64,000 nucleotides of DNA from Loigolactobacillus bifermentans DSM 20003 (GTDB taxonomy: Bacteria > Bacillota > Bacilli > Lactobacillales > Lactobacillaceae): the NCBI RefSeq assembly GCF_001434575.1, contig NZ_AZDA01000093.1, positions 89,469 through 153,468 of the forward strand. Reading direction: 5' to 3'. The notes below the pieces were generated by a model that ran no database searches, was not told the origin of the DNA, and worked only from the letters and a program-made list of their open reading frames with translations. The position numbers and the translations under genes were made by a program. How positions within the stretch are numbered: position 1 is the first letter of the stretch; every line of letters starts with the position of its first letter. Below, in pieces: positions 19,113 to 30,743 of this stretch.

Positions 19113-19145
19113 GTTTGTCACTCCATCTGTTCTAGGTAAATTCAT

Positions 19146-19179: not shown

Positions 19180-19208
19180 TTGTGAAGAGACTTGACTTTC
19201 AATATAAT
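19180..19208 (+). promoter_or_regulatory. Promoter of the hisS-aspS operon
   Basis: TTGTGA (19180-19185), 17 bp, TATAAT (19203-19208), directly before the T-box leader. It is back to back with the amidase promoter. Confidence 0.6.
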
Positions 19209-19214
19209 TTTCGG

Positions 19215-19432
19215 TAACGTTAAAACCGAACTCAATAGGAACTGTAGGGAAGTATTTGATCAACGAGAATTGCAAAGAGAGGCAGGCTGCTGAAAACTGC
19301 TCAAGGACGTTGATCAAGCGACACTTCTTTAGGTTAGGCATTTGCCTCGCAATCCAGCGTTAGCGGTTGAGTTATATATTAAGGTGGTACCGTGCAATTT
19401 GCGCCCTTGTCGTTTGACAGGGGCTTTTTTTC
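19215..19432 (+). ncRNA. T-box leader of hisS-aspS with overlapping GAC/CAC specifier
   Basis: tRNA-sensing leader RNA. The conserved T-box sequence AAGGTGGTACCGTGC is at 19381-19395, and the competing terminator GCCCTTGTC/GACAGGGGC (19403-19411 with 19416-19424) runs into seven T. In Stem I, TGATCAACG (19257-19265) pairs exactly with CGTTGATCA (19308-19316); the AGTA box is 19251-19254; GAAG (19249-19252) can pair CTTC (19324-19327). The specifier loop opposite AGTA reads AGCGACAC. It contains GAC (Asp, 19320-19322), followed by the usual A, overlapping CAC (His, 19322-19324). The operon encodes HisRS then AspRS. Confidence 0.88.
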
Positions 19433-19457: not shown

Positions 19458-20753
19458 ATGGCTTACCAACGGCCAAAAGGAACTGCAGATATTTTACCAG
19501 GAGAATCTGAAAAGTGGCAGTATGTTGAAGCAACAGCTCGTAACGTTTTTAAGAGCTATCACTTTAGCGAAGTCCGCACACCAATGTTTGAAAACTTTGA
19601 TGTTTTTTCACGTTCTGTTGGCGATACGTCTGATATTGTCACAAAAGAAATGTATGATTTTCACGATAAAGGGGATCGCCACATTGTGTTGCGTCCTGAA
19701 GGAACGGCAGGTGTCGTTCGTGCTTACGTGGAAAATAAACTGTATGGTCCAGAACATCCAAAACCAGTTAAAGTCTACTATATGGGCCCAATGTTCCGGT
19801 ATGAACGGCCACAATCAGGCCGCATGCGTGAATTCCATCAAATTGGGGTTGAGGTCTTTGGTAGTGAACAGGCTGCGGTTGATGTTGAAACAATTGCCAT
19901 GGCCATGGACTTCTTAAAGCACTGTGGGTTACAAGATTTAAAATTAGTCATTAATAGTTTGGGGAATATTGCCAGTCGGCAAGCTTACCGGCAAGCGTTG
20001 ATTGATTTCTTGGAACCACATTTTGCTGAATTAAGTCACGATTCACAAGAACGTCTGCACAAAAATCCATTACGGGTTTTGGACAGTAAAGACGAAAAAG
20101 ATCAAGCCATTGTTGCAGATGCACCTTCGATTTTGGATTATCTAGATGAAGAATCAACGGCACATTTTACAGCTGTGAAACAATTGTTAGGCGATTTAGA
20201 CATTCCTTATGAAATTGATGCCAACATGGTACGTGGCTTAGATTACTATAATCATACGATTTTTGAGATCATGTCAAACTCGAAGGCCTTTGGCGGCCAA
20301 TACATGACTGTTTGTGGCGGCGGACGTTACAACGGCTTGGCCAGCGAATTAGGCGGCCCTGAAACACCAGGCTTTGGTTTTGCCATGGGGGTTGAGCGGT
20401 TACTGTTGATTATGGACGCTGACAAAGTGGCCATGCCAATTGATCATGCCTTAGACGTTTACTTGGTCAGCATTGGTGATGCTGCGCAACGGGCAAACCT
20501 TAAGCTGATCCAGGCAATTCGGCAGGCTGGTTTTACAGCCGAGCGGGATTATTTAGATCGCAAGGCGAAAGGGCAGTTTAAAACGGCAAATCGGTTAAAC
20601 GCCAAGGTCGTCTTGACCTTAGGGGATAGCGAAGTAGAAAGTGCCACGGCACATCTGAAAAACATGGCCACTGGGGCAGAAATCTCAGTGCCATTTGCGC
20701 AGATCACAACAGACTTTAAAGCAGTTTATGAAACGGTATTAGCTGCAGAATAG
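19458..20753 (+). CDS. hisS: Histidyl-tRNA synthetase
   Basis: Class II synthetase charging tRNA-His, 431 residues. It begins [16 protein letters not shown], carries motif 2 in [25 protein letters not shown], the histidine-binding loop [12 protein letters not shown], and motif 3 [15 protein letters not shown]; the C-terminal anticodon-binding domain follows. GAAGGGAG precedes the ATG. aspS starts 12 bases after its stop, the usual Bacillota hisS-aspS operon. Controlled by the T-box leader just upstream. Confidence 0.98.
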
Positions 20754-20765
20754 AGGAGTAGACAA

Positions 20766-22544
20766 ATGGAAATACGGACAACATATGCTGGCTTAGTTGA
20801 CGAAAAATACGTCGGCCAAGAAGTCACTTTAATGGGCTGGGTTCAAAAACGCCGGAATTTAGGCAATTTGATTTTTATCGACCTCCGCGATCGTGAAGGC
20901 ATTGTTCAATTGGTCTTCAGTCAAGAATTTGGTCATGATGCGTGGGCAGTTGCGGATTCCATGCGGTCTGAATATGTGATTCAGGCGAAAGGGAAAGTTG
21001 CTTTACGGGATGCTGATGCAATCAACCCTAAAATGGCAACTGGTAAAATCGAAGTTGAAATTCACGATGCCGTTATCTTAAATAAGGCGAAAACACCACC
21101 ATTTTATATTGAAGATGACATTAATGTATCGGCTGACCTACGGATGAAGTATCGTTATTTAGACTTGCGTCGGCCAGAAATGTTAAATGGCTTGCTGATC
21201 CGGAATAAGATCACCCAAGCGGCCCATCGTTATTTAGATGAAAATGGTTTTATTGACGTTGAAACGCCGGATTTAACAGCGTCAACGCCTGAAGGTGCAC
21301 GCGATTACTTAGTACCTTCTCGTGTTTATCCAGGCCATTTTTACGCGTTACCACAATCCCCACAATTGTTTAAGCAGTTGTTAATGGGGGCGGGCTTAGA
21401 TCGTTATTATCAAATTGCCCGTTGCTTCCGTGATGAAGATTTACGTGGTGATCGCCAACCTGAATTTACCCAAATTGATTTGGAAACCAGCTTCTTATCG
21501 GCTGAAGAAATCCAAACGTTAACCGAAGGCTTGTTGAAAGCTGTTATGAAGCAAGCGAAAGGTGTTGACATTACCACACCAATTCCGCGTATTTCTTGGC
21601 AAGAAGCACAGGATCGTTTTGGTTCTGATAAGCCAGATATTCGTTTCGGGATGGAATTAACCGACTTATCCGACTTAATGAAGGAGACTGAATTTAAAGT
21701 CTTCAGCAAGGCCATTGCGGATGGCGGTCAAGTCAAAGGAATTTGTGTGCCTGGTGCGGCTGAGAAGTATTCGCGTAAGGATATTGATAAGATCCAAGAT
21801 TATGTCACGCGTTTTGGCGCTAAAGGCTTAGCTTGGTTGAAGATGACGGATGACGGTTATACCGGTCCAATTGCCAAGTTCTTCAAAGGTCAAGAAGACG
21901 TCCTAAATGAACGTTTAGGCGCTAAAAGTGGCGATCTGTTGTTATTCGCAGCTGACCGGCGTAAAGTCGTTGCGGATACCTTAGGTTACTTACGTAAGTT
22001 CTTTGCGAAAGAATTAGACCTGATCGATCAATCTAAATTTGCCTTTATTTGGGTCGTTGATTGGCCATTATTTGAATACGATGAAGGGATTCATCGCTGG
22101 ACTGCGGCGCATCATCCATTTACCATGCCAAACGAAGAAGATGTCCATTACTTAGACGAAGGCGAAGATCCACACCAAGCCCATGCGCAAAGCTATGACA
22201 TCGTCTTAAATGGCTATGAATTAGGTGGCGGTTCGATTCGGATTCATAATCGTGATACCCAAGAAAAGATGTTACGTGCGTTGAACATTACACCAGAGCA
22301 GGCAAAACAACGTTTTGGTTGGTTATTAGATGCCTTAGACTTCGGTTTCCCACCACATGGTGGTTTGGCCTTAGGGTTAGATCGCTTTGCCATGTTATTA
22401 GCAGGGCGTGATAATATTCGTGATGTCATTGCCTTCCCTAAGAATTCCAAGGCAGGCGATCCATTAACGGATGCCCCAACACGGGTTTCTAACAAACAAT
22501 TATTAGACCTTGATTTAACAGTTTACAACCCAGATCAAGCATAG
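20766..22544 (+). CDS. aspS: Aspartyl-tRNA synthetase
   Basis: Class IIb synthetase, 592 residues, of the bacterial type with the GAD insertion. N-terminal OB fold for anticodon ([26 protein letters not shown]), motif 2 [20 protein letters not shown], the large insertion between motifs 2 and 3, and motif 3 [15 protein letters not shown] followed by [15 protein letters not shown] precedes the ATG. tRNA-Asn charging specificity cannot be judged from this alone. Second gene after hisS, ended by a strong terminator. Confidence 0.98.
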
Positions 22545-30540: not shown

Positions 30541-30743
30541 CGTATTTAGCAATGATGAGACAGAAGTTTTGAGGGACTGTTAACAGCGACTCTAGATCAG
30601 TGTAAGCTAGAGAACAGACACAAAGCAGGGCATTCTCGGAGCGTTAATGAAATAAAAAAGTGTCAGTGAAAACTGGAACTAGGGTGGAACCGCGAATAAT
30701 TCGTCCCTATGTAGATCATATTTGATTTACATAGGGATTTTTA
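30541..30743 (+). ncRNA. Glycine T-box leader of glyQS
   Basis: The canonical T-box AGGGTGGAACCGCG is at 30681-30694, followed by the terminator TCCCTATGTA/TACATAGGGA (30704-30713 with 30728-30737) and T5. The likely specifier is GGC (Gly, 30629-30631), followed by A, in AAGCAGGGCATT. The leader is about 200 nt, short like other glyQS T-boxes. Uncharged tRNA-Gly should favour readthrough. Confidence 0.9.

Follow-up and report, generated by a model that had tools for sequence, protein, structure and literature searches.

The T-box leader and its genes

The window, by which we mean the whole 64,000-nucleotide stretch of DNA analysed here, carries a hisS-aspS operon preceded by a T-box leader at about 19235-19431 (Table 1). 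Both genes score over their NCBIfam cut-offs, which confirms the first-pass annotation that the operon encodes HisRS and AspRS and places the leader before genes of tRNA charging which, with amino-acid metabolism, is what was looked for downstream of a T-box. Within the leader, Stem I presents a specifier in an internal loop with a purine (A) next to it, this A being paired in the minimum-energy fold. A T-box core with a UGGN bulge, a terminator and an elbow-binding T-loop (AGAGA) are also present, and the antiterminator and terminator folds would be expected to compete.

Table 1. Positions of the leader elements and genes within the window
Feature	Position	Strand	Basis
Possible promoter (TTGACT, 17 nt, TAACGT)	19192-19220	+	Read by eye
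Stem I of T-box leader	19240-19335	+	Rfam alignment (19235-19411), minimum-energy fold
Lower Stem I helix, 5' strand; pairs with 19324-19331	19245-19252	+	Minimum-energy fold, specifier caller
AGTA box; first three bases paired in minimum-energy fold	19251-19254	+	Sequence, fold
Specifier GAC (Asp); A19323 is the usual purine after it	19320-19322	+	Rfam specifier columns
Overlapping CAC (His); last C pairs with G19252 of lower helix	19322-19324	+	Fold probabilities
Lower Stem I helix, 3' strand	19324-19331	+	Minimum-energy fold, specifier caller
T-box core AAGGTGGTACCGT region; bulge UGGU at 19385-19388	19381-19393	+	Rfam alignment, sequence
Intrinsic terminator hairpin, then U tract 19425-19431	19403-19424	+	Fold, automatic scan
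hisS, histidine--tRNA ligase	19458-20753	+	TIGR00442, 509.2 bits (cut-off 286.75)
aspS, aspartate--tRNA ligase	20766-22544	+	NF001750, 846.4 bits (cut-off 443)

The stretch 19316-19327 reads AAGCGACACTTC and faces GGGAAGTA at 19247-19254, giving a specifier loop AAGC-GAC-A-CUUC. In the minimum-energy fold the bases CGAC lie unpaired in an internal loop, with the upper helix (19256-19265 with 19308-19317) above and the lower helix, lengthened by a U19253-A19323 pair, below. A genuine T-box precedes hisS-aspS, with GACAC in the specifier loop of its Stem I, which upholds the first annotation. Blocks of the form TTGAC...GTAAC, like the possible promoter of the window, precede the leaders of several relatives; an automatic promoter scan gave other sites (19180-19208 and 19115-19142).

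The Rfam T-box model (RF00230) aligned with the leader over its full length (1-219 of 219) at 45.8 bits, with an E-value of 4e-9 for the 371 bases searched. As this is below the Rfam gathering score of 93, a scan of the whole window reported nothing here. Such a score, together with a kink-turn signature at the base of Stem I that is unrecognisable in the Rfam alignment, could be taken as the decay of a degenerate leader that senses no tRNA. However, the specifier, T-loop, T-box core, terminator and UGGU bulge are all in place, and low scores are common: only 18 of the 43 T-box matches in this genome lie over the cut-off and 25 below it, making a low score usual here, and a relative's hisS-aspS leader (L290) likewise falls short at 85.9. 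We regard degeneration as scarcely credible, the least probable of the readings considered. A second T-box match within the window, at 30543-30711 (G000:C33:120011-120179; 72.9 bits), was missed by the default scan because it too scores under the gathering score. Elsewhere in the genome, a match of 45.7 bits (L032; G000:C65:40925-41101, minus strand) was considered as a second hisS-aspS copy and rejected, since it stands before an amino-acid permease gene (read by eye).

Reading register of the specifier loop

As far as the excerpted sources go, both the occurrence of GACAC in hisS-aspS T-boxes and the idea of dual sensing are already in print and are not new. GACAC is described as characteristic of these leaders in work on Lactobacillus parabuchneri (PMC5313534), whose hisS-aspS T-box (RF00230) has the same operon and the same GACAC as the window and belongs to another genome without differing in kind. 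According to the same source, Gutierrez-Preciado et al. 2009 suggested that GACAC interacts mainly with aspartyl tRNA, and the same review, as reported in PMC4342826, raised the question of tRNA-Asp, tRNA-His or both by proposing two alternative structures that sense tRNA-His and tRNA-Asp. The hisS-aspS specifier loop is not treated in the excerpted text of PMC2494555, and our literature search, conducted nearly all under the hyphenated spelling 'T-box', found no tRNA-binding test of hisS-aspS T-boxes.

The Rfam model is blind to the downstream gene, and it places GAC in the specifier columns of both the window leader and L290. In three His-type T-boxes (L001, L007 and L282) the same columns hold CAC with a purine next. 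Two of these, L007 and L001, belong to the same RNA family and the same genome as the window leader but differ from it in having CAC in the specifier columns; L007 precedes hisZ and L001 an amino-acid ABC transporter (genes read by eye). This comparison bears directly on the reading in which the window leader is specific for histidine and CAC alone is read, as might be suggested by hisS being the first gene, by the presence of CAC and by names such as "histidine T-box", the wording used for the MRSA hisS-aspS leader in the excerpt of PMC7927825. With GAC in the columns where the His-type T-boxes have CAC, and with leaders of the family that carry no His codon at all near the specifier (see below), we consider a His-specific leader very improbable.

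The two registers also differ in their surroundings. According to the excerpt of PMC7583486, the purine next to the specifier on its 3' side makes a conserved contact; in the window GAC has A19323 at this place, whereas CAC is followed by U. The unpaired probabilities of G, A and C of the specifier are 0.88, 0.82 and 0.98, falling to 0.10 for A19323 and 0.02 for the last C of CAC; opening GAC with its A costs 1.80 kcal/mol against 5.13 for CAC with its U, the latter being 3.3 kcal/mol dearer. Over the 71 GACAC leaders of the window's family, mean unpaired probabilities are 0.60, 0.72 and 0.67 for GAC, 0.74 for the A and 0.28 for the last C, which usually begins the lower helix as its first paired base. 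Opening the shifted triplet costs more in 64 of these 71, in 88 of 104 family leaders overall, and, among other Bacilli, in 35/37 GAC and 27/27 AAC leaders; where CAC is lacking, in 33 family leaders, the contrast in pairing is weak. One leader from the same genus as the window (L036) has the CAC register slightly cheaper to open (1.41 versus 1.64).

The fold of the window leader leaves some room for a second register. The lower helix uses up three bases of the AGUA box in the window, and opening the top of this helix both restores AGUA and exposes CAC, a form that could correspond to the sort of alternative fold put forward in 2009. A first, freer specifier caller, which also allowed CAC and CAU, favoured the CAC register over GAC in the window (13.9 versus 12.9) because the opened helix top leaves AGUA intact in the loop. 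It was noisy, often placed the specifier outside Stem I, and was replaced by a second caller restricted to GAC, GAT, AAC and AAT, which excludes CAC. From these features a two-codon T-box can be drawn, in which a flickering lower helix offers GAC to tRNA-Asp when closed and CAC to tRNA-His when two to three pairs are open, either tRNA activating both genes. Besides the restored AGUA box and the score of the first caller, the published proposal of two structures and a frequency of GACAC in the family above the base rate (see below) speak for it; the U after CAC and the extra cost of freeing that triplet speak against. The pairing of the purine after GAC counts against a leader specific for tRNA-Asp.

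One T-box with two codons in its specifier loop, like the window leader, reportedly comes from Clostridium acetobutylicum. By the title of its report (Saad et al. 2013) that T-box binds two tRNAs, whereas in the window the second codon is unconserved and its last base is paired. The lysK T-box of Bacillus cereus, in the excerpt of PMC2916919, is also reported to respond to two tRNAs. There Lys and Asn share one mixed codon box, whereas the two codons of the window overlap in frame. These precedents lend the two-codon reading some support, and taken with the comparative data below we judge it unlikely.

Conservation of the overlapping codons among relatives

HisRS was sought in evenly drawn sets of 121 genomes from the window's family and 151 from its class, each set including the window's own genome, and we assembled 199 loci comprising all 125 family HisRS matches and 74 further loci of the class. 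A T-box core lies upstream of hisS at 170 of the 199 loci, which is more than chance; at the remaining 29 no core was matched by the search pattern, and eight of these (L075, L150, L159, L165, L170, L180, L182 and L183) have an adjoining aspS. The specifier was counted in 168 leaders, 104 from the family and 64 from other Bacilli, after leaving out L177, which exactly duplicates another leader of its genome, and L204, in which no specifier could be located, and calls were fixed by eye in 37/104 and 10/64 of them. Named Lactobacillaceae loci carry the same leader as the window's family, which is therefore probably Lactobacillaceae.

An Asp codon occupies the reading position in 104/104 family leaders (GAC in 103, GAU in one), an invariance that is partly by construction because the second caller sought only GAY and AAY and excluded CAC. 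The bases that follow are far from constant, with GACAC in 71, GACGC and GACCA in 5 each, GACAG and GACGT in 4 each, GACTG, GACAT and GACAA in 3 each, GACGA and GACTT in 2 each, and GACCC and GATGA in one each. Among the 33 family leaders without the overlapping CAC, eight keep a His triplet in the six-base span that begins with the codon (GACAT in three, GACCAT or GACCAC in five), leaving 25/104 with neither CAC nor CAU in that span, an observation that counts against a leader reading CAC alone. In other Bacilli, GAC is found in 37/64 leaders, followed so as to give GACAC in 16, GACAT in 8 and other sequences in 13. Hence the conservation of GACAC on which the first-pass annotation had staked the two-codon idea breaks down in 33/104 family leaders and in 21/37 GAC leaders of other Bacilli, CAU replacing CAC in 3 of the 33 and 8 of the 21. 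CAC does not share the constancy of the Asp codon, being present in 71/104 and 16/37 leaders, respectively. Mapped onto a HisRS tree of the 168 leaders, the presence or absence of CAC must have changed 24 times or more, the codon six times or more. Half of the family's genera (18 of 36) include one or more leaders that lack CAC, and 10 have no leader with it.

To what extent the overlap arises anyway can be judged from other T-boxes with C-ending specifiers. CAC overlaps the specifier in 9/31 such controls (read by eye), which were picked by eye from 100 T-box loci of four genomes, part of that listing being noisy, with hisS-aspS leaders excluded; the nine have Ile-, Cys-, Gly-, Phe- and Arg-type loops. 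A C-ending specifier, the usual purine A and a C paired in the lower helix together spell CAC, and the overlap is in part a by-product of T-box design for this reason. The rate of GACAC in the family (71/104) exceeds this base rate, and shared descent would be a sufficient, if unproven, explanation of the excess. Another reading, that the leader is a two-tRNA OR gate in the window's lineage in which opening of the helix top shifts the frame by two bases, the CAC-less leaders being later single-tRNA derivatives, strikes us as improbable.

The comparison offers a direct test bed for the tRNA question, above all through two genomes whose hisS and aspS are not joined and whose leaders for both genes have GAC and no adjacent His codon. 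In these genomes, G025 and G062, hisS has no adjoining aspS, which lies elsewhere in the genome; in G025 an msrB-msrA pair (read by eye) comes after hisS. The hisS leader reads GACAG in G025 and GACTG in G062, both with UGGU, and each aspS has its own T-box with GACAG and UGGU. Over a span that starts four bases ahead of the codon and runs to the sixth base counted from its first, none of these four leaders contains CAC or CAU, which counts against two-codon reading. Latilactobacillus fragifolii (L424) likewise has GACAG in its hisS leader and no aspS within 2,000 bases after hisS. A lone hisS thus retains a T-box of the Asp type. In the sister genomes G093 and G119 the two genes form one operon, and the leader reads GACTG. 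Loci of genus g26 from genomes with separate hisS and aspS were L053, L056, L445, L446 and L424, and by likeness to L424 this genus is probably Latilactobacillus.

A predicted tRNA-Asp leader and variants in other Bacilli

In a T-box the end of the uncharged tRNA base-pairs with the UGGN bulge. This bulge is UGGU in the window leader, and in the same genome tRNA-Asp has G73, while tRNA-His carries C73 facing an additional 5' G (tRNAs read by eye). The window leader combines an Asp codon in the specifier columns with a bulge able to pair with G73, and the last base of the bulge is U or C, and so able to do likewise, in 141/141 GAC or GAU leaders. From 16 loci with a His-type motif, five had no T-box core near the motif, and the 11 T-boxes that remained, three of them aligned by the Rfam model, have A in four, C in four and U in three at this base. 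UGGA as a mark of His T-boxes, as suggested by L001, L007 and L282, was ruled out by these counts, and in its excerpted text the TBDB paper makes no use of the last base of UGGN for His specificity (PMC7778990). As His-type T-boxes have A, C or U there, UGGU fits Asp yet alone cannot exclude His, and the argument from the bulge rests on the constancy of U or C over the 141 leaders, not on the UGGU of the window alone. Downstream of the His-type T-box L001 stand two T-box cores, one with UGGA and one with UGGU, separated by about 110 bases; they may reflect duplication of the antiterminator or a further leader. L458 also has two cores.

The anatomy of the leader, the register assigned by an independent model, the comparative loss of CAC and the tRNA end bases are the observations that underlie an aspartate reading, and on sequence evidence of this kind the leader in the window is very probably an ordinary T-box of the transcriptional type, with specificity for tRNA-Asp. 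When uncharged, this tRNA would pair through its GUC anticodon with the GAC specifier, A19323 serving as the conserved purine 3' of it, while its free G73-CCA end would pair with UGGU, with a G-U wobble at position 73. This pairing would hold the antiterminator, prevent the terminator at 19403-19424 and allow transcription of both hisS and aspS. Because the two genes would be transcribed together under tRNA-Asp control, HisRS would be made on an aspartate signal, and a lack of histidine would be sensed by other T-boxes of this genome, the His-type L001 and L007. From these features we infer that the leader binds tRNA, undergoes antitermination and does not respond to histidine. Most likely the His codon that overlaps GAC is incidental, a by-product of the last base of GAC, the conserved A and the first paired C of the lower helix. 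Thus, of the first-pass suggestion that the leader might answer to tRNA-Asp, tRNA-His or both, the tRNA-Asp half is favoured by the register, the conservation of GAC and the match of UGGU to G73, whereas the tRNA-His or dual half is disfavoured by the loss of CAC in 33/104 family leaders and its absence beside GAC in the split-operon leaders; dual reading of tRNA-Asp and tRNA-His appears unlikely. If tRNA-Asp alone is read, it is aspartate supply that runs histidyl-tRNA synthetase, with histidine sensed elsewhere.

Variation in both the bulge and the codon was seen outside the family. A UGGA bulge occurs in 11/11 leaders of family f6 (L082, L086, L088, L090, L194, L195, L201, L202, L208, L210 and L214) and in six named relatives, of Lysinibacillus or Caryophanaceae (L383, L384, L389, L392, L396 and L399). 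In the one genome checked (G180), UGGA pairs with none of the Asp (G73), Asn (G73) and His (C73) tRNAs.

In 27/64 hisS-aspS leaders from outside the family, AAC (Asn) replaces GAC in the reading position, as AACAC in 23, AACGC in two, and AACAT and AACAA in one each (L076-L083, L086, L088, L090, L092, L189, L194, L195, L201, L202, L208, L210, L211, L214-L216, L219, L223, L226 and L228). AAC also occurs in named Bacillaceae and Caryophanaceae leaders, read by eye (L364-L375, L383, L384, L389, L392, L396 and L399). Our literature search yielded no paper that we recognised as treating AAC in hisS-aspS leaders. The Rfam alignment agrees on AAC in the specifier columns of L244 and L270, and the AAC leaders may represent a switch from tRNA-Asp to tRNA-Asn. 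The AspRS of some bacilli also charges tRNA-Asn, and for this reason AAC in a hisS-aspS leader would make sense.
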